Shown here: positions 851 through 24,714 of the stretch, piece after piece
Position numbering within the stretch: position 1 is the stretch's first letter
How the letters are laid out: each line of letters opens with the position of its first letter
IMG/VR virus record: IMGVR_UViG_3300024999_000370
Location: 1-25,099 of that record
Length of the DNA stretch: 25,099 bases
DNA from: a virus
Strand: one strand, 5' to 3'
Notes under the pieces: generated by a model
Told to the model about the DNA's origin: nothing
Database searches by the model: none
The model's input: only the letters and a program-made list of their open reading frames with translations
Made by a program: the position numbers and the translations under genes

Positions 851-2259
851 TTGGATGATTTAAACATATTAATTAGAGCGAAAATTGATGCGGCATCTAC
901 GGATATCAATAAACAAATAAAAGCTTTACAAAAAGAAGTAACAACTGCAATTTCAGTAAAATTAAAAGTAGATGCTAAAGATTTAACTTTGATTAATGAT
1001 ACAATAGAAAAAATAAAAAAAGCAACGTCACAATCAGGTAATTCAAAAATAAAAATATTTAATGAACAAGATTTAAAAGAACAAGGAATTAAGTACAAAC
1101 AAGGCGTAATAAGAACAATTGAAGATGTCGAAAAATATCTTAAGGGTGCTTTTAATGGTAAAAAATTTGATTTAGGTTCTATAATAACAAATTCAAGTGG
1201 CAATATAAAATCGTTTGAAGCAAGTATTAAGTCAGCAAATGGGCAATTGGAAAAGGTTAAGTTTAGTTTAGCAGAAATATCAAAACTAAATGCTAAGGGA
1301 TTAGCAAGTACGGTATCGGGATACGTTTCAAGTGGCTCTCAACTTTCAAGAATACCAATTAAACAAGAAACAATTTTTGATAGAACAAAATTAGAGGCAG
1401 ATGGTAGACAATTTTTTATTTCTTCATCTAATATTATTGAACGGGTTAAAAGAGAATTTAAGACTCTTGGAGATGTAGACGTTAATTTTCTGAAAAACTC
1501 TAAACAGGAAATAACTGGGTTTATAGCAAATGTAACCAGAGCCAGTGGTGTAATTGAAAAATTAAAATTTGATATGGCAAGAATACAGTCTGGCAACAGT
1601 ATACAAAGAGGATATGTTTTTAGTAGTGAAAATTTAATTGATAGAAATGCCGGAACAAATATTCAATCTGCTTTAAATAAGTTACAATTATATGAAAATA
1701 AAATAGCAAAACTAAGAGCTGGATTTATTTCTCCTACTTCTGGTATAAAAGATGCAGATAATTTGGCAACATTAACTGCTCAATATGATAGAATTAAATC
1801 AGTTATAGATCAAGTAAGAGCAAGTAATACCAATCTATCTAACGAACAAAGAAGGGGAATAATCCAAAATATAAGTAATTTAGAGCTTGAAATTTCTAGA
1901 TACAGAGATTTACAACGTATAATGGCGACTACAACAACAAATACCAGAAGTTTAAGTGCTAATGACATTGCGTTATTTCAAGGCAATATGGCAAATAGAT
2001 TGGCAAGTTTGCAAGTTGGTAAAGACACTGTTTTTGCAAGACCAGAAATTCAAGCACAGGTTACTCGTTTAACAGCAGAGGTGGCAAGATTTGGGACGGT
2101 AGGTGGTAGGTCTGCCAGAGAGTTAAATTTGCAATTTGCTCAACTAACCACATCTGTAAGAAGTGCTACAAATGAAATTACAAGAATAAATGGTGCTGCC
2201 GATAGTTTTTTAACGACACTTTCAAAAAATTTCGTGAAGATGATGGCGTGGGGAATGGT
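851..2259 (+). CDS. Tail tape-measure protein, exon 1
   Basis: First exon of the tape-measure protein, which sets tail length and is threaded through the tail tube. It begins at TTG (851), 7-8 bases after an AGAGAGGTGG ribosome-binding site. It encodes residues 1-469 plus two bases of codon 470 (GT). The protein is rich in K, S, N and I with coiled-coil stretches. It ends in KMMAWGMV, which in tape-measure proteins leads directly into the YAP-type start of the conserved phage-tail core domain. In the unspliced frame the sequence runs on for 13 unrelated codons to a TAA at 2297-2299, so an ORF caller would report 851-2299. I place the 5' splice site after T2259. The six bases before it (2254-2259, AATGGT) pair with GCCGTT at 2272-2277, with a U-G pair at the splice site. 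Joining to 2577 gives WGMVATALYAP, as expected for the family. Confidence 0.85.
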
Positions 2260-2576
2260 GGAATACAAACTGCCGTTTGTAGTGAAAGTGATAATGTAAC
2301 TACAAATTATGAGAGGGGAAATTCGAAAGAGGGTCACTGACCTAGTATCGAGAGGGTTATAATCAAATAACCTTTGTAACGCATAGGGATTGAGCGATAT
2401 GATAGCAAAAATATCCCCAAGAGTCTCCTCCTTCTTATCACCTTTGTTTTAAAAACAATGTGAAGAAAATATATGCTGAACTAGTCTGAATTAACAGACG
2501 TATCGTTTTGAAAATATAAACGTATGAAGGTAACTTCTAGATCATAGGGATAAAAAGCTCTATGGATAACAAATTG
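2260..2576 (+). ncRNA. Intron 1 in the tape-measure gene, probable group I type, no ORF
   Basis: A 317-base insertion that breaks the tape-measure frame. Evidence for an intron: the flanking frames rejoin exactly, restoring a family-like sequence; the upstream exon ends in U and pairs (AATGGT with GCCGTT at 2272-2277) through a terminal U-G, the P1 rule for group I introns; the last intron base is G (2576). The interior is packed with hairpins: TTTGTAGT/ACTACAAA (2276-2306), GGTTAT/ATAACC near 2355, GGGAT/ATCCC near 2386-2416, CACCTTTGTTTT/AAAACAATGTG around 2441-2462, GTCTG/CAGAC near 2485, CGTTT/AAACG, and GAAG-GTAA-CTTC with a GNRA loop (2526-2537). I could not find the usual P7 GACTA/TAGTC pair or a CAGCCAAG-type P4 segment, nor a group II domain V. 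The subgroup is therefore open and the ribozyme could be divergent or degenerate. Confidence 0.6.
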
Positions 2577-3401
2577 AGCAACCGCGCTATACGCACCACT
2601 TCGATCTTTACAGACTGGCCTTGCCACATTAAAGGAACTAGATGGATTAATGGTAAATATTGCCAAAGTTACTAATCTTAGTGCTGAAGCAATGGAAAAT
2701 TTAAAAAATAGTTCGTTTGAAGCCGCTAATGCCTTTGGACGTACTGCACAAGACTATTTAAAATCAATTGGAGAATTTAGTCGAGCAGGATATGAAGATA
2801 AATCAGCAGATTTAGCAAAAATTTCTCTATTATCACAAAACGTTGGTGAATTAACAGCAGAACAAGCAAATAGTTTTTTGCTTGCTACTGATGCAGCATA
2901 TAAATATAAAGGCAGTCAAGAAGCATTAATGGGAGTTCTTGATGGCGTAAATATCATTGACAACAAGTTCGCGACTAGCATCCAAAAAGTAAGTGAGGGA
3001 ATAACAGTTGCCGGATCTATTGCCTCAAACGCCTCAGTTGGAATAAATGAACTTTCTGCCGCCGTTGGAACTATGACTGCAATCACACAACGTTCCGGAA
3101 ATGAGGCGGGACGAGCTTTTCGTGGAATTTTGATGAACATCAGACAGGTCAAGGGGGAAACAGAAGATGGAGAAATAATTGATGATGAAGCATTATCTAA
3201 ATCTGCTAAAGCTTTAGAAGATGTAGGAATTAAAGTTCATGAAATGCGTAATGGTATTGAAGAGTTAAAAAACCCTATGGATGTGCTCAAAAATCTCTCT
3301 GAGGTTTGGGGGTCGCTCAGCACTATGAAAACCGCCCCAATTATTGAGGCGTTAGGTGGAAAATATAGAGGTAACGAACAAATGTTGACAGCCTCCTATG
3401 T
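2577..3401 (+). CDS. Tail tape-measure protein, exon 2 (conserved core domain)
   Basis: Middle exon, residues 470-745 of the spliced protein. It holds the conserved phage-tail (TP901/PhageMin-type) core: TALYAPLRSLQTGL, then KELDGLMVNIAKVTNLS, followed by SAAVGTMTAITQRSGNEAGR and ALGGKYRGN. The first 24 codons (2578-2649) lie upstream of the first ATG (2650), so an ORF caller starting at that ATG loses real coding sequence. The reading frame continues to a TAG at 3415-3417 inside intron 2. I end the exon at T3401: CTATGT (3396-3401) pairs with GCATAG at 3412-3417 with a U-G at the junction, and a strong hairpin (GATAGAT/ATCTATC, 3421-3441) follows at once, the normal P1-P2 order. Exon length is 1 + 274 codons + 2 bases, so both junctions split codons after GT of a valine. 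Confidence 0.85.
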
Positions 3402-4665
3402 ACAGAAATGTGCATAGAGCGATAGATAATTTACATCTATCCAAAATCTCTTTAATTGCTGGAAACCCATAAAGCTGATTAAACCACAACGTAATAATCA
3501 ATAGTTTTTGTATAAAAACATTTAAGGAAGTGATTTTTATACAAAGCTGGACTGAGAAAGATATTGAGATACTAAAAAATAATTATACATTTGGTAATGT
3601 AAATAATATTTGTGATTTATTAGATAATAAATTTTCTTATAGTGCAATTGTGTCGAAAGCTAGTAAATTAAAAATATCAAGTAGGGATTACTGGTCTGAA
3701 GATGATGTTGATATAATGAGAAAATATTATCCTATTAAAGCTCCCAACGAAATGTTAGAATTACTTCCAAACAGAAATATAAAAACTATTACTATGAAAG
3801 CTTGTGAGCTAAATATAAAAAATATAGTATCACTTAATTTATGGTTCACAAGCGAAGGTGTAGAATTTATAAAAAATAATTGGAAAGTGATGACGGATGA
3901 AGAAATTGGGAAGATTTTAAATAAAAAGTCTCATGCTATACAAGACAAACGAATTCAGTTCGGATTATTAAGGGTCGCAGAAGAAAGTTCATATGAAAAT
4001 CTTTCAGAATTTGTAAGACGCAATAATGGGATATGGAAAAAAGAATCAATGCAGAATTGCAATTATAAATGCATAATAACAGGAGAAAGATTTGATGATA
4101 TTCATCATATGTATGGACTAAATTTAATCCTTAATAGAGTATTATTGCATTTAAATATTGAAATTAAAGGAAAAATAGACGATTATTCCAATGATGAATT
4201 ATCGTCTATTTTATATACTTTTAGAATGTTTCAAAGTGAATATCCTTTGGGTGTTTGCTTAAAGAAGTAAATACATAATAAATTTCATTCTTTGTATGGA
4301 TTTGGCGATAATACAATAGAGCAATGGCATGAGTTTAAAATAAATTATAAACATAATGATAAATTTACAAAAACTATTGATTATAAGCGTGAGGGTTACG
4401 AAAGTGGAAAAAATTAATCAGATGGCATATGGTTAAATCCTAAGTGCTGTAATAATTGGCAATCAGCAGCCAAGACCGCAAGGTAAGGTTCAACGACTAT
4501 TGCGAAAGCAAGTACACTCAAGTGGGTGGAAATGGGAGACATCCTTATAGGATGGTGATATAGTCTATTCTTATATGAAAGTATAAGAAGTTCATATTAG
4601 ACAGCAATATTTATTTTGTTTAATTGAGAACTGGCAAGGACTAACGACCCTTGTTGAATAAAAAG
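3402..4665 (+). mobile_element. Group I intron (IA-like) with HNH endonuclease gene, intron 2
   Basis: A 1264-base group I intron in the tape-measure gene. Core signatures lie downstream of the endonuclease gene: GGCAATCAGCAGCCAAG (4458-4474, P4/P5), GTTCAACGACTA (4488-4499, 5' side of P7), GATATAGTCT (4557-4566, 3' side of P7; GACTA 4495-4499 pairs with TAGTC 4561-4565), P9 hairpin CTTATA/TATAAG near 4571-4588, and a final G at 4665. Upstream are P1 (3396-3401 with 3412-3417), P2 (3421-3441) and a GCTG segment near 3457 that can pair with CAGC near 4464 as P4. GATTAAACCA (about 3478-3487) pairs, with one mismatch, to TGGTTAAATC (about 4429-4438), so the endonuclease gene sits in an extended P5 loop. 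The layout resembles the IA introns of T4 td and phage Twort (from memory). The 3' junction AAAAAG|CAATCA keeps frame. Confidence 0.9.
3530..4417 (+). pseudogene. Intron-encoded SANT/Myb-HNH homing endonuclease, interrupted by an in-frame stop
   Basis: The intron's homing endonuclease, which would cut intronless tape-measure alleles to spread the intron. The open part (246 codons to TAA 4268-4270) has three tryptophan-led SANT/Myb-like DNA-binding repeats (WTEKDIEILKNNY at residue 7, WSEDDVDIMRKYY, WFTSEGVEFIKNNW), then an HNH start, YKCIITGERFDDIHHMYGLN. The same frame continues after the TAA for 48 codons (4271-4417), beginning IHNKFHSLYGFGDNTIEQW. That is the conserved second half of the HNH domain in phage endonucleases, normally preceded by KE or KD. 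The TAA therefore looks like a GAA-to-TAA nonsense change that removes the second catalytic His/Asn segment. Loss of function is likely unless readthrough occurs. The start is uncertain: GTG (3530) overlaps the AAGGAAG site, while ATA at 3539 has better spacing. The gene lies in a loop of the ribozyme. Confidence 0.8.
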
Positions 4666-7600
4666 CAATCAATTAGTTGCATTAGTAGAAAACTTTGACA
4701 TGTATGAAAAAATGCTTACTGAATATTCTAATGCTAGTGGATCTGCTATGACTGAGAATGAAGTGAGAATGGGCAGTTGGGAAACCAAGATTAATCAGCT
4801 CAGAAATTCAATAAATAACTTCTGGAATAATACTATAGATACTAGTTTAGTTAAAAGTATGATTGGCGGTATAACTCTATTAATTAATAATTTTGGTAAT
4901 CTTAAAACTATCTTAGGTATAATATTTACTTTGCTTGCAGTAAATAAAGGTACTGCATTCTTAACATTTTTAAAGAATTTTTCATTGTCTACTGTGTTAT
5001 TAAACTCAAGTTTAGTTCAAACACAAGCAAGATTAGCAGGAGTAGAATTTGCTCAAATGAGATTAATGGCTATTACTCAAATGTTAACTTTCGCTACTAA
5101 GGGTTTGTGGGCAGCTATGCTTGCTAATCCAATTGGGTTAGTTGTAGGTGCTGTTACTGCTGTCATAATGGCATTTGATTTTATGGGAGCAAGAGCTGAA
5201 AGATCGGCTCAAAAACAAAAAGAAGTATTTGATGAACTAAACAGAAGCATTAATTCACTCAAACAGCAAACAGCAGAAGCAAAAAATCTAGCAAGTGAAT
5301 ATGAATCTCTATCAGCAATATCATCTCGCACAACTGAAGAAGAAACTAAATTAGCAGATATCAGATCTCGTCTATTAACACAATTTCCAGATTTGATCGA
5401 TGGTTATGATGCAGAGGGTAAAGCAATCATTGGTTCTTCCGAATCAATTCAACAAGCAATTAAAGACAACGAAGAATTGCTAAAAGTTAAACAAGAACAA
5501 ATGGCTATAACTTTCACTACTGATGGAAAAACTAATTTTTCTCAATTACAAAAAGACCAAGAGAGATTAGATTTATTAACAAAACATAAAGATGAGTATT
5601 TAAAAACTATTGAAGATATAAATAATGGAAGTCAAAATCAAACTGATGAATACGGTAATGATTCACTAGCAATTGCTAAAAATAATTTAAAAGGTATTAA
5701 AGATGAATTGTCTACACTTAGTACTAAAGTTCTTGAAAGCAGAAAAGATTTATCTGTTTTAGCTGAAGCTTTTCTACAGAGTAGTAATTCTGCAAAATCA
5801 CTAGGTAAAGATGCCGTAACTAAATTAATCTATGATTTGAGTAAACTTAAAGACGAAAGTAAAATTACAGGCGAAGAGTTTACTCAAATATTTGATGGAT
5901 TGAAAAACTCTGATTTTTCTTCTGAATTAAGCAAAGCAAAAACAGAATTGGAAAAATTAGCAAAAAGTGGGGTAAGTAAAGATGTAATTGGTGTAGCTTA
6001 CGAAAATGCAATTTCTAATCTATCTTCATATTTAAAAGCGTTAGGAGTTAGTGGAGAAGAAGCAGGTAAAATATTAAAAGATATGCTCAATCTACCCGAT
6101 GCTCAAAAAGCTCAAGATAATATTAATGATGTCACAACCTCTCTTACTACTCTCCAAAAAACTCTCTCCGATTCCGCATCGGCCATATCAGAAATTCAAT
6201 CAGTCATGGATTCTTATAATGAATCAGGATCTTTTAACTTAGATAATATCATAAAATTATCTGCCACATATCCTCAACTTCTTGGAATGTTGGGTGACGA
6301 AAAAGCTATTCGAACAGAACTCACAAATCTTATCCAACAAGAACAAGAGAAATCTGAACAAGCTTATCTACAAATGATAGAAACTGATAAAGATTATTAT
6401 CAAAATAAAATCTTATTAAATGAATCTTATAAATCCAGTATGGAAAGTTCAATTCAAAGTCTTGTTGATTCTTATGGTATTAATTATAAAGTAGATTTAG
6501 ACAACTTCAAATCTCTTGCTGAAGCAAAAATGGAAGTAGAAAGACAGTTACTCAAAACACTATCTGCCAATTGGTCTCAATATTATGATATTGAAAGAAA
6601 CTCTTTAACAACTGATTATACAGAACTTTCAAGAGTAGACCCTGAAGCAGCAAAAAAAGTGCATGATGCTGTAGTAAAAGCTAGTCAACTTGCTAAAGGC
6701 TTTGATAATATTGCTTTAAAAAGTTCCGGTGTTGATTTTTCAAGCATTGGTATGTCAGGGAATAAGGACAAAAAAGAAAAAGCATCCCCTACAGAATCAG
6801 TTTCCGATACTCTCAGTGTAGAAGAGTCATTAATTCGTTCATTCAACACAGAGGCAAAAATAACTGCTGAAAAGAATAAAATTCTTCAAAAACAACTTGA
6901 ACTAGCCAAGTCTCAAAAAGATTATAATACCATTCTTGAGAAAACGAATGAATTAACAAACGGACAACAACTTGAAATCGTTCAACTTGGTCAGGCAAAG
7001 TCTAAGATAGAAGCAGAATTTGCTTTACAATCCTCAAAGAGTGGATTCTCTAATACATCTACTTGGTTTGACGCTGAAGGAGAAGCTACTCTTGATTATG
7101 TAAATACTTATAATTCTGCATCTGTAGAGCAAAAGAAGGTGCTCAAAGATGTTTTTGATACTCTTCAAAAATTAGAAAAAGCATGGAAATCAAATTCTGA
7201 TGCAATTGCTACAGCTACAGAAACTTCTAAGACTTTTACACAACAATCCAAAGAAGACCTAATAAAATCATTAGAAGAACAATCAGATGCCTTATCCTCA
7301 TCTGAAACATCTACTCTAGAATCCTCTTTCAAAAACCTAGACATCGAACAATGGATAAAAGACAATATCACAGCAACATCAGAATGGTCAGATGTAACAA
7401 GAGAACTTCAAATTGAATTATCCAAACTTGGCAATCCTACAACATTTGAAGGTCAACAAAAATATAACGAATATCTAAAATCCTCTGCAAAATTAGCATC
7501 TGAAGCATTAAAAGCACAAAAAGATTATCAAAAAGAAGTAGAAAAAGCAAAGCAAAATGCTCTCTTCGAATCTACAGATGCAAACCTTCAAGAAATCATG

Positions 7601-10600
7601 TCAAAAATTGATGCTGTAGAACAACAACAACAATTATCAAAAGGTGGAATATCCTCTGCTGTCCCTAAAATTGATATGGAAATTGTCCCTCGCATAGACT
7701 ATAAATCAGTTCAAGATGCAATCGACGAGATTCCTAAACCAAATGTTGATGAATATGAATTTACTCCCCCTCTATCTTTTGTTGAATTCATAAATAATGA
7801 ATTTACAAATGCTGTATCACTCGCAAATACCACCATCTCTGACCTGAAATCCAAAATCACAGCATTAGGTGAAGTCACTCCTGAAAATAAAGACCAAATA
7901 CTATCCTATTACAAACAAATCCAAGATCAAGTTCAAGCTTTATCTGATGTTGCAAAAAATGCTCAAGATTCTCTCCAGTTAAAACTCTCCACTGGTGAAA
8001 TATCTCAAGAAGATTTTAATAATAAGATGCAAGCAATTCAAACAGCTTCCATTGAAGTTTTAGCAATTCCTAAAATTGAAATTACAGCAGAAGCAACTCA
8101 AGGTATTCAAACTCTTCAAGATCAAATGAAGGATATTGTTGTAGATGCTGATACAAAATTAGCAGATGATAAATTATTAGCATTAATTAGTAAACAATAT
8201 GAAACAATTATTACAGCAAATTTAGATGATATTGCTGCACAACAAGCAATATTAATGTTACAACAACCAACTTCTTCAATTCATACTATTTATGTTCAAA
8301 CTGTAGAAGGAGAAAAACCAGAAGGTTTTGCTAAAGGAACAAATTCCCACAAAGGTGGCCTCGCAATTGTCGATGATGAGGCAACTGGTAAAAGAGAATT
8401 AATTATTCTTCCTAATGGAAGTATTATGTTAGGAGATAATTCTGGGCCAAAACTAGTAAATCTTCCAAAGGGTACACAAGTAATTCCTAATGATGAAACT
8501 GAAAGAATATTAAAATCCAACAACGGTAAAATCCCTGCCTATGCTGAAGGCACTGGTTCTCATATCACTGATATTGATTTCCTCAATGATAGTCTAGATG
8601 AATTTGCTCAATCCATATCTGATATAACAAAAGAAATTGCTAAAACAACAAAAATTGTTGCAAAAGATAATACTGCTGTAGAAAAATCAGATAAAAAAAT
8701 TGCAGGATATGAAAAAACTCTATCAAAATATTTGAATGAAGATGGCACTTATAAAGATAAATATGCTGGCTCAAGAAATGCTGAAAGAACAGTTGCTAGA
8801 ACACAAAAAAATATTGAGAAAGAAACCTCAAAAAATAAGGAACTGGTCACAAAAACTGAATCAGATCAAGCAATTCTTGACTCTCAAAAAGCTTCAAAAA
8901 CTGACTTTACTCAAAAACTTGTTGCAACACAAAAAGCATTAGCTAATTTAAATTCTGCACAATATATTGAACAGAAAATAAATCTTTATCAAGAAGCCAT
9001 AACTGTTGCATCTGCTAATATTGATGAATTATATGATTCTATTGCTAAATATAAAAATGATGATGGAACATATGAAGACAATGAAACAACCAGAGATGTT
9101 TTAGGAAAGATTAAATCCAACTTTGAAGCTCAAAAATCTAGTCAATTATCAATAAAACAATTAGTTAAAGAGAGGTTTGAAGCTGAATATGAAGGATTTG
9201 ATAAAGCTCAGGCAAAAGCTGAAGCTCAAGTTTCATATTTACAAAAAACCTTAGAATATCAAAAACTAATTGGAGCAAGTATCGAAGATCAATTAGCAAC
9301 TGAGCAAGCAATTCAAGAAGAAAATCAAACCAAAGTAGATTCGCTTCAAGCTGAAAAAACTCAATTAGAAACAGCTAAAGCAGAGGCAGAGGCACAAGTA
9401 AAAGCAGATTTGGCAAAAGTTGATCCTAATTATACTGATGCTGACTTGGCAAATGCATTAGCAAATTCTCAGGAATTTCAACAAGCATCTGATAAATTAG
9501 GTGAAGTTAATACAAAAATTATTGATGCTAATATTGCAATTAAACAAACTGCTCAAGAAATTGCCAATATTAAATTTGATAATCTAGTGAAACCATTTAA
9601 AGATGCAATAGCTGATTTGCAAGTTTTGTTACAATTACTTGATGATACTGATTTTGCTGGAAGTATTGCAAATATAGAAGCACAAATGACACAAGAAGCA
9701 TCTATAATTGCATCTATTAAACAGCAAATTGCCGAGACTCTTGCAGACACATCTTTAACAGCAGGGGAAAAAGCAACAAAAGTCTCAGAATTAACAACTC
9801 AGCTCAATGAAGCAGAACTTGCAATGAAAGGTTTAATAGATACTGAGAAGGATTTCCAAAATAAACAACTTGCTAAAACTTTTGAAGATCAATATGAGGC
9901 AATAGAGAAAACTCTTTTTAATGGTTCAACTGAGCAAGAGGCGCAGGACGCATTAAATCAAAGAATCGCATTGCAGGAAAAATATCTTTCAGGTGCAGAA
10001 AAAGACTTAGAAATAAGTAAAATTAGAACTCAAATTCAATCAGAAGGATTAACTCTAACTGCTGAGCAAACTGCTTTATTGAATTCACAAGGAGATATTG
10101 AAAAATCTTCGATAGAACGATTGCAAAAACAACTTGATATTCAGCAATTGCAATTAAAAGTAAAGAATCTCATGGATCAAAAAACTATTCAACAAATGAC
10201 AAAGAATGCAGATGGTACATGGGATTTTACTTATGTTGCAGATCAAGAAGTGATTGCATCAGCGCAAGAAGAATTAGCAAACAGTCAAGTTGATTTGATT
10301 AATTGGGAAAAAGATGAAATCAATGAGGCAGATCAAGAAAAACTTGATGAAAAGTCTAAGTATTTAGCAAGAGTTAAAACCATAATGGATAATGCTCTAA
10401 ATGGCGAATACGATAGCATGGAAGAATTTAATAGAGCCATGACTAACCTGAACAAAGAATATATGGGCGACATGAATCTAATAAATTCTACTGAATGGAA
10501 TAATATTTTTACTTCTACTCAGAGTAATTTAACTAATATAGAATCTGCTTATTCTACTTATGTAGCTAACATGGAATCATTATCAGTTAGAGCAAAACAA

Positions 10601-11239
10601 GCACAGCAAGATATTATCAATGCTCAAGCAGCCGAGGCAAAAGCTAAAACTGATGCATCTAATACTTCATGGAAACCAGAAGATTGGGAGTCTAAGACTT
10701 TAGTTCAAAAAGCATTGTGGTTGAATAATAATAAAACAGATGATGAAATAAAAAGTAATTCTGAAATGCTTCAATTTGTTGTTGGCTCCACAACTTCTAC
10801 AATGGATGGTATGAAAGCAGATGGTGTGTCTGCTAGTGAGCAAGCATTTGTTGATGAAATTAATAGAAGATTTGGATTGGCATTAAAGTTTGATACAGGT
10901 GGATATACAGGTAGCGGTCAGGGTTTTGCTATGCTTCATGAGAAAGAATTAGTATTAAATCAATCCGATACATCAAATTTTTTGAAGTCTATTGAAATTA
11001 GTAAAAGTATATTAGATTCTTTGAAAGGATTTGATTTAAGTAAGATTCAGATGGTAAATATGTTAAGTAATTTTAAACCGATTGATGTAATGAGTAATTT
11101 GATTAGTAAGACTAGTCAGACAATAGAAAATCATTTTCATATCAACAAACTTGAATTGCCTAATGTTAATAATCAAAACGGAATAGATGGGTTGATTCAG
11201 GGCCTCAACAGTTATGCGATTCAGTATTCAAAGAAATAA
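4666..11239 (+). CDS. Tail tape-measure protein, exon 3 (main body and C-terminus)
   Basis: Third exon, residues 745-2935 of the spliced tape-measure protein. It begins with NQLVALVENFDMYEKML, the conserved end of the core domain (family pattern N-x-L-x-A-L-x-x-N-F/Y-D). The first ATG, at 4700, is internal: eleven codons before it belong to the protein. Two hydrophobic segments follow (residues about 810-848 and 890-916, the latter WAAMLANPIGLVVGAVTAV), typical of tape measures. A very long Gln/Ala/Lys-rich coiled-coil region comes next. Around residue 1965 is GFAKGTNSHKGGLAIV with LIILPNG and LPKGTQVIPN, and near 2820 is FDTGGYTG with MLHEKELVLN; both are recurrent tape-measure motifs. I see no clear lytic domain. 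At roughly 0.15 nm per residue (general rule) a 2935-residue protein would suggest a tail of about 440 nm, so a long-tailed siphovirus or myovirus. Confidence 0.93.
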
Positions 11240-13477: not shown

Positions 13478-14827
13478 ATGTTATTAACAAAAGAAGTTGA
13501 AGTTGAATTATCTTCAAATACTATATTTTATTATGAAACTTTAGGTTATAAAATACCTAGAATATATAATAAATATTGGGGAAGTAGAGTAAAAAGAGGA
13601 ACAAAAATATTAGTTAAAGTAGAAGACTTACATGACGTATCAAGAGCATTAGTTGATGTTAAATGTGATGGTAATAATTGTGAAGAAATATTAAATAACT
13701 TGTATTGGTATAATTATAAAAAGTGTGTGCATAAAGATGGTAAATATTATTGTCGAAAATGTGCTATGGAATTATATGGTAGTAAAAATAGAGTAACATC
13801 ACAACTAAAAAATGGTAAATCATTTTATCATTGGTGCTATGATAATTTATCCAAAATTGATGCAGATAAAATAATATTTAGGTGGAACAATGAACTAAAT
13901 ATTGATAAAGAAGGTAATATATTAACCCCAAAAGATGTAAGCTATGGTTCTTTAGGTTTTAATAGAAAAGGATATTGGTTTAATTGTTTAGACCACCCTG
14001 AACATAAACCTGAATTAAAAAGCATTAATAAATTTACAAGTGGTCAAAAAGGAAGTATTACTTGCAATCAATGTAATACAATATCTATTACACATCCTTA
14101 TTTAATTAAATATTTAGTTAATAAAGAAGATGCTAATAGATATTCTTTCGGGACACATAATAAAATCCCAATGAGATGCCCCAATTGTGGATGTGAAAGA
14201 CATATGAGTATTAATCAATTAGTAAGTTCTGGATTTAGTTGTTCAAAATGCTCATCTGGCTATTATCCTGAAAAATTTATTTTTAATGTTTTAGATCAAT
14301 TATTAGATAATGATTTTTCATCACAGCTATCAAAAACAATTTTTAAATGGTGCGATAATTATAGATATGATTTCTATTTAGATAAATATAATTGTATTAT
14401 TGAAGCTCATGGATTACAACATTATGAAGAATCAGGAATAAGATGGAAAAAATCATCAGATGAAACACAAAACAATGATTTCGATAAGGAGTGGTTAGCA
14501 AGAAAAAATAAAATTAAAAATTACATAATATTAGACTGTAGAAAATCAGAATTAGAATGGATTAAAAATAGTATAATGAATTCTAGATTGCCTAAATTAT
14601 TAAACTTCAAAGAATCAGATATTGATTGGCTGAAATGTCATGAGTACGCTTGTTCAAGTAGAGTTAAAGAAATATGTGATTTATGGAATAGTGGAATAAA
14701 AAATGTAATGATGTTATCAAAAAAATTGAAATTAGATCAAGGAACAATTAGAACATATTTAAAACAGGGAACAAAACTTCAATGGTGTGATTATGATTCT
14801 AAGTCTAAAAAGGTGGTGAATATATAG
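13478..14827 (+). CDS. Freestanding homing endonuclease, EDxHD (Vsr-like) type with zinc ribbons
   Basis: A 449-residue protein starting at ATG 13478, six bases after GGAGTGA. The first half has several cysteine pairs typical of zinc ribbons: CDGNNC with YYCRKC, CLDHPEH with CNQC, and CPNC with CSKC. The nuclease core follows: YYPEKFIFNVLDQL with Glu265, YRYDFYL with Asp298, IEAHGLQHY with Glu309, His311 and His315, and a D-x-x-W-x-x-R-K helix leading to YIILDCRKSE. This order matches the EDxHD homing endonucleases related to Vsr repair nucleases (I-Bth0305I is the known example). The C-terminus looks like a helix-turn-helix (VMMLSKKLKLDQGTIRTYL). It is inserted among tail genes with no intron visible around it. 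Its last codons supply the AAGGTGG ribosome-binding site of the next gene, whose ATG is two bases after its stop. Confidence 0.85.
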   Translation: MLLTKEVEVELSSNTIFYYETLGYKIPRIYNKYWGSRVKRGTKILVKVEDLHDVSRALVDVKCDGNNCEEILNNLYWYNYKKCVHKDGKYYCRKCAMELYGSKNRVTSQLKNGKSFYHWCYDNLSKIDADKIIFRWNNELNIDKEGNILTPKDVSYGSLGFNRKGYWFNCLDHPEHKPELKSINKFTSGQKGSITCNQCNTISITHPYLIKYLVNKEDANRYSFGTHNKIPMRCPNCGCERHMSINQLVSSGFSCSKCSSGYYPEKFIFNVLDQLLDNDFSSQLSKTIFKWCDNYRYDFYLDKYNCIIEAHGLQHYEESGIRWKKSSDETQNNDFDKEWLARKNKIKNYIILDCRKSELEWIKNSIMNSRLPKLLNFKESDIDWLKCHEYACSSRVKEICDLWNSGIKNVMMLSKKLKLDQGTIRTYLKQGTKLQWCDYDSKSKKVVNI

Positions 14828-23874: not shown

Positions 23875-24714
23875 TTGAAAGAAGTTGAAGAGGTAGTAAT
23901 TTTAGATCCATATGGGTTTATCTATATTACAACCAATATAATAAATGGTAAAAAATACATAGGACAAAAGATATTTGATAATAAATTTAATAATTATTTA
24001 GGAAGTGGAAAGTTATTAAAGCAAGCAATCAAAAAATATGGGAAGAAAAATTTTTATAGAGAAATAATCGCTATTACCTATAATAAAAACGAACTTAATG
24101 AATTAGAAATAGAATATATATGCTTACATAATGCGGTTAATAGTAAAGATTATTATAATATTTCTCATGGTGGTGATTCACCTATGGCAGGTCTTTATTG
24201 GTCGGAAGAACAAAAACAAGGGCTTAGTGAAGCAATGAAAGGACATGAAGTATCAGAAGAAACAAAAGCGAAAATTAGCGAATCACTAAAAGGAGAAAAG
24301 CATCATAATTATGGTAAAATAATGTCCGAGGAACAGAAACTTAAACTTAGCGAGGTTAGAATGGGAGTTCTCCATTCTAAAGAAACAAGAGAAAAAATAA
24401 GTCAGTCTCACATTGGGATAACTCATTCTGAAGAAAGTAAACAAAAAATGAGTATATCACGAAAAGGTGTAAAAATGTCAGAAGAACGTAAAATAAAAAT
24501 GGGCGAACAACGAAAAGGCAAGAAACATTCTGAAGAAAGTAAATTAAAAATAAGCATGAGTAAGATGATATTAAATTTAGAACAAATTTCAGAAATTAGA
24601 GAAAAGTACGCTACTGGTAATTATAAAAAATATGAATTAGCTGAAGAGTATCCAGTGTCATCGACAGTTATTGGTAAAATTGTTACTTATAAAGGAATAT
24701 ATAAAACAATATAA
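23875..24714 (+). CDS. GIY-YIG homing endonuclease with seven NUMOD3 repeats
   Basis: A 279-residue DNA endonuclease. The N-terminal GIY-YIG domain has GFIYITTN (residues 14-21; the usual GIY reads FIY), KKYIGQK (26-32; YIG at 28-30), an FYREI segment and a glutamate-rich helix (NELEIEYI, near 80). Seven tandem repeats of about 17 residues follow, from about 109 to 225, each of the form S-E-E-x-K-x-K-x-S-x-x-x-x-G (for example HSEESKQKMSISRKG). These are NUMOD3 motifs that contact DNA. The C-terminus (LNLEQISEIREKYATG, YELAEEYPVSSTVIGKIV) looks like a helix-turn-helix. It starts at TTG 23875 after AAGGGG. No intron surrounds it, so it is freestanding, placed between two DUF5659-like genes. 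Confidence 0.92.
   Translation: MKEVEEVVILDPYGFIYITTNIINGKKYIGQKIFDNKFNNYLGSGKLLKQAIKKYGKKNFYREIIAITYNKNELNELEIEYICLHNAVNSKDYYNISHGGDSPMAGLYWSEEQKQGLSEAMKGHEVSEETKAKISESLKGEKHHNYGKIMSEEQKLKLSEVRMGVLHSKETREKISQSHIGITHSEESKQKMSISRKGVKMSEERKIKMGEQRKGKKHSEESKLKISMSKMILNLEQISEIREKYATGNYKKYELAEEYPVSSTVIGKIVTYKGIYKTI

Follow-up and report, generated by a model that had tools for sequence, protein, structure and literature searches.

Two different mobile group I introns probably interrupt one phage tape-measure gene

Main finding

The window, by which we mean the whole stretch of DNA analysed (25,099 bp), is a virus-record fragment carrying a tail-lysis region, and the nearest cellular relatives of the phage are in Clostridia genomes. 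Comparison with related sequences argues, with a probability that we put at about 95%, for a single late tape-measure protein (TMP) gene into which two different mobile group I introns have inserted, its predicted joined frame being 8,778 nt. Both insertions occupy exact sites, are present or absent independently of each other and have the anatomy of ribozymes, and the joined frame is intact.

The tape-measure gene and its exons

The open reading frames listed in this region lie at 851-2299, 2650-3417, 3530-4270 and 4700-11239. A preliminary description of this DNA had taken the first, second and fourth of these open segments, which the list confirms, as exons of a single tape-measure gene, and that reading is borne out by empty and singly occupied sites in relatives, by a continuous match to the tape-measure profile phrog_4211 and by group I anatomy in both introns. 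All features lie on the plus strand. Exon 1 (851-2259) is open, starts at a TTG preceded by a purine-rich ribosome-binding site, AGAGAGGTGG, and is collinear with the uninterrupted TMP of locus L011. Exon 2 (2577-3372, the end being 3371 or 3372), delimited by the empty site of L011, encodes the PhageMin_Tail domain, PF10145, which Pfam places in the middle segment with an E value of 3.7e-19. Exon 3 (4667-11239, the start being 4666 or 4667) runs to the end of the gene. The two latter exons match adjacent parts of phrog_4211, exon 2 covering positions 597-844 and exon 3 resuming at 855, and a joined piece of 620 residues across both joins matches the profile in a single stretch (525-1073, E 1.7e-94).

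The corrected coding sequence (851-2259, 2577-3372 and 4667-11239) amounts to 8,778 nt, that is 2,925 amino acids and a stop. Skipping from exon 1 to exon 3 was rejected, as the frame would shift.

Natural variation at the two insertion sites

Seven close relatives came from IMG/VR when it was scanned with the protein encoded by exon 2. Two of them (L011 and L012) have neither intron and are uninterrupted over TMP residues 1-1265, with 81% amino acid identity; four (L007-L010) have intron 1, in a copy 92% identical, and lack intron 2; L006 has intron 2, in a copy 90% identical, and lacks intron 1. Identity to these copies is thus higher for the two introns (90-92%) than for the exon stretches beside them (about 77-88%). 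From this presence and absence, and from the higher intron identity, it follows that each insertion is an independent, precise and naturally variable element inside one gene. Across site 2 we could align about 40 uninterrupted homologue loci, taken from IMG/VR, a phage collection and Clostridia genomes; many of these also align across site 1.

Among the sequences compared, this natural variation is the strongest evidence for the predicted exon/intron structure. It forms a clean series in one phage gene (no intron, each intron alone, both introns), from which both the joined coding sequence and the history of homing can be deduced without recourse to RNA data. In the N-terminal part of the TMP in L006 (5918-6401), the match of exon 1 covers residues 1-59 and resumes only at 269, which suggests a large replacement or deletion.

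Splice junctions

Since intron-free relatives show the empty sites, the splice junctions are fixed by comparison. At join 1, L006 and L011, both free of intron 1, have AWAAVATALYAP and AWGLVATALYAP at the corresponding place, no base being gained or lost, and the predicted spliced DNA is GGGGAATGGT followed by AGCAACCGC. At join 2 the empty L011 allele reads AGAGGT followed by AATCAATTAG, and the predicted spliced DNA is TATAGAGG(T/C) followed by AATCAATTAG. The peptide stretches that would span the joins in the spliced TMP are AWGMVATALYAP and GGKYRGNQLVAL.

The ends of intron 2 can slide by one base. The frame permits only 3372/4667 or 3371/4666, and as the codon is Gly either way the protein is unchanged. 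The canonical U.G pair of P1 would place the 5' site after U3372, with C4666 as the intron end, whereas a canonical terminal G would make G4665 the last nucleotide of the intron and G3371 the last one of exon 2. The empty site of L011 fits both. A comparison with the tail-tube intron of L018 was meant to resolve these ends, but the same one-base slide occurs there.

The preliminary description had proposed 2259/2577 and 3401/4666 as splice sites and alignment to uninterrupted homologues as a check. This alignment shows the first pair to be exact; of the second, the 3' side holds within one base (4665/4666), while the 5' side is about 30 nt off. It had also proposed that each 5' exon end pairs with a guide through a terminal U-G and that each intron ends in G. 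Both statements are right for intron 1; intron 2 ends in G4665 or C4666, and the pairing claimed at 3401 is its P2 hairpin.

Intron 1

Intron 1 (2260-2576) is a 317-nt group I intron without an ORF, delimited by the exact empty sites of L006 and L011. Its helices were placed as P1 2253-2259/2272-2278, P2 2276-2283/2299-2306, P3 2313-2319/2424-2430, P4 2322-2326/2348-2352, P5 2332-2335/2339-2342, P6 2355-2360/2367-2372, P7 2381-2385/2472-2476, P7.1 2386-2390/2413-2417, P8 2431-2434/2462-2465, P9.1 2526-2529/2534-2537 and P9.2 2543-2547/2560-2564. The U at the exon end is paired to a guide G (GAAUGGU/GCCGUUU), and the intron ends in AUUG, its last nucleotide being G2576.

DNA searches for relatives of this intron led to Clostridioides phages, a faecal phage and Acinetobacter phage ME3; many further members of the family came from pattern scans of IMG/VR. 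RNAalifold cannot represent a pseudoknot, so pairs were assigned by hand in an alignment of 26 sequences and then counted. The alignment supports P3, P4, the base of P5, P7, P7.1, P8 and P9.2: 85% of pair cells are standard, versus 66% when shuffled and 32-45% when slid, and double-change cells number 195, versus 63 in shuffles. P3 is 95% paired, and each of its seven pairs shows two-sided changes; such changes also occur at five of five pairs in P7.1 and at three of four in P8. P7 has the form GCRUA/UAYGC and is 100% paired, with an A-U to G-C exchange, although most rows of the alignment came from a pattern that includes the 5' strand of P7, the G-C variants being supplied by rows from a 3'-end pattern. 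P6 aligns poorly across the family and is compensatory between the window and L007. The covarying core is a P3/P7 pseudoknot enclosing P4-P6 and P8, and its P7 is unlike that of intron 2 (GACUA/UAGUC).

Judged from these sequences, the family appears widespread in phages and is missed by the standard Rfam group I covariance model. We suggest, tentatively and at a little less than even odds, that it could represent a widespread, uncatalogued phage group I subgroup, marked by P7 GCRUA/UAYGC and invisible to Rfam, that has repeatedly invaded tape-measure and other phage genes.

Intron 2 and its endonuclease

Intron 2 (3373-4666) is a group I intron of about 1,294 nt with DNA similarity to stretches of 570 phage records. 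When its 3' part was submitted alone, RF00028 matched 4371-4587 with 50.3 bits (E 4.1e-12), above the gathering score of 50; the L006 copy, with 46.6 bits, is just under the threshold, and relatives without the long ORF, in Alicyclobacillus and Enterocloster phages, score 70 and 96 bits. No group I match was returned for the whole window or for 2200-4750, probably because an ORF of about 800 nt interrupts intron 2 and intron 1 is outside the model.

The helices are P1 3368-3372/3391-3395 (GAGGU/GCCUC), P2 3396-3401/3412-3417, P2.1 3421-3427/3435-3441, P3 3447-3452/4534-4539, P4 3456-3461/4464-4469, a P5 extension 3475-3482/4414-4421, P7 4495-4499/4561-4565, P8 4541-4544/4550-4553, P9 4568-4575/4582-4589, P9.2 4635-4639/4649-4653 and P10 3384-3388/4669-4673 (UCAAU/GUUGA), which is in register with P1. 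P1, pairing the exon-end U to a guide G, is conserved in L006, and the frame also permits the cut one base earlier.

The putative homing-endonuclease ORF (3530-4270, GTG start) is located in the P5 extension, within the loop of an 11-bp stem (3494-3504/4374-4384). It matches phage D5-like and HNH profiles (phrog_323 and phrog_1891 only), while Pfam HNH was not matched and a PDB search was without match. A premature TAA (4268-4270) lies within the HNH-like region, so that the HNH domain of the window copy is not intact; the copy in L006 (7959-8783) is intact with 274 amino acids and has GAA at that codon. The dN/dS between the two copies is about 0.22, suggesting that the protein was under selection until recently.

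Proposed mechanism

Splicing in the cell, homing and a loss of endonuclease activity are what we infer from these comparisons. In the transcript each intron would fold into a ribozyme, with the exon end paired to the internal guide (P1), and would most probably splice itself out by the two-step group I reaction: attack of a guanosine on the 5' splice site would release the exon, which would in turn attack the 3' site. The three exons would thereby be joined into one frame of 8,778 nt, encoding a tail-length ruler of 2,925 amino acids. Intron 2 may have spread, at least until recently, by means of its HNH-like homing endonuclease cutting intron-less TMP alleles, and such homing would explain its patchy distribution. 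Intron 1 does not encode an endonuclease here; its movement may depend on recombination of the flanking DNA or on an endonuclease from elsewhere.

Alternative readings

The version of the preliminary description, in which intron 2 starts after U3401 and the TMP has 2,935 amino acids, is in frame (its joins sum to 8,808 nt with one terminal stop) and has a 6-bp pairing, CTATGT/GCATAG, with a terminal U-G. We regard it as the least probable of all the readings considered. Its 5' site adds ten codons, and the residues that these encode, EQMLTASYVN, are absent from all of the roughly 40 intron-free homologue loci aligned at site 2, which run through a GGKYxxNxL-type motif without an insert. In L006, moreover, the pairing at 3401 drops from six to three pairs, while P1 at 3372 stays at five, and P1 and P10 at 3372/4667 agree with the empty site of L011. 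The gene is therefore taken to have 2,925 codons before the stop.

It could also be asked whether intron 1 is a mobile element of another kind, or an intron of another type. The Rfam group I model does not match it in the whole window or in 2200-4750, even at E 10 in 2.5 kb, and none of 16 loci holding introns of this family matches RF00028 at E 1. The missing match is a matter of model score and not a structural criterion; it lowers confidence in the subgroup placement of the intron, and because of it the group I assignment rests on covariation and topology. These argue for group I: the elements follow the order P3-P4-P5-P6-P7-P7.1-P3'-P8-P7'-P9, with P3 strongly covarying and P7 covarying, a J8/7-like A-rich stretch precedes P7', a U stands before the intron and a G at its end, so that a non-group-I element is very improbable. 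We give an equally small chance to insertions that are real but remain unspliced, the TMP being made as three assembling proteins, as in some endonuclease-split phage genes. An ATG does stand near the start of each later segment (2650 and 4700), and Cluster O mycobacteriophages have an HNH gene beside tmp with no detectable splicing (PMC4351075), which is why an endonuclease next to a TMP gene does not by itself prove an intron. However, neither ATG has a clear ribosome-binding site, starts at these positions would drop conserved residues encoded upstream, both insertions are complete group I ribozymes whose P1 is formed by the exon end, and the joins restore the uninterrupted homologue exactly.

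Other elements

In a search of the window for further introns, no additional copies of either core motif set were found. Two other endonuclease-like genes look free-standing: a homing-endonuclease-like gene between virion genes (13478-14827; phrog_4538, phrog_559 and phrog_9084), and a GIY-YIG endonuclease with four NUMOD3 motifs downstream of the lysis genes (23875-24714). In Acinetobacter phage ME3 (L014, about 2256-2629) a core of the intron-1 family lies between a Vsr-like endonuclease gene and the annotated start of recA; because of this adjacency the ME3 recA is probably split and mis-annotated. In Alicyclobacillus phage KKP_3916 (L018, 2960-3320) a group I intron lies in the tail-tube gene, annotated as separate hypothetical proteins. 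A phage fragment bearing another intron of the intron-1 family (L035) also carries a ROOL RNA (272.8 bits) and a tRNA at 172-761.

Comparison with known systems

The preliminary description had considered introns in such a late virion gene uncommon. This view is contradicted by Barth et al. 2023 (PMC10448857), who call the TMP a "frequently interrupted gene": in phage ICP1 it consists of four exons and three introns, with splicing shown by RNA-seq and RT-PCR. The window resembles this Vibrio phage in a TMP split by several introns, and the HNH endonuclease content of ICP1 varies between isolates; it differs in the number of exons, ICP1 being a phage of a Gram-negative host, and the likeness is drawn from the published description, not from sequence. 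In Cluster J mycobacteriophages, group I introns in the LittleE capsid gene and the BAKA minor tail gene were confirmed by RT-PCR (PMC3706429). These too are late virion genes, with one intron having and one lacking an endonuclease, and with U before the intron and G at its end, but they are not TMP genes and have one intron per gene. The group I introns of Bastillevirinae, in DNA polymerase, terminase, thymidylate synthase and ribonucleotide reductase genes (PMC11878797), are sometimes several per gene and many have an endonuclease in a loop, again in host genes other than the TMP.

By sequence, the Clostridioides phages pCD1602_4 (L013) and ES-S-0173-01 (L015) have copies of the intron-1 family within the TMP gene, as the window does. 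In pCD1602_4 (1858-2658) two such introns interrupt one TMP gene and the joined frame is open. The positions differ from those of the window; one of the pCD1602_4 introns stands before GKYHIN, upstream of site 2 by a few codons. KKP_3916 and Enterocloster phage CB457P2 (L019) carry near relatives of intron 2 by sequence and RF00028, although in other host genes (a tail-tube homologue in KKP_3916) and with a different endonuclease or none. These observations are further evidence of a hot spot for group I introns in the TMP gene, with different families a few codons apart at the conserved GGKYxxN motif. Because a common family of phage introns escapes the standard covariance model, too few split late genes are probably annotated as such. 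An intron-split TMP is already a known kind, as in ICP1; this case adds to it the presence/absence series, together with a family of introns that goes unrecognised by Rfam.
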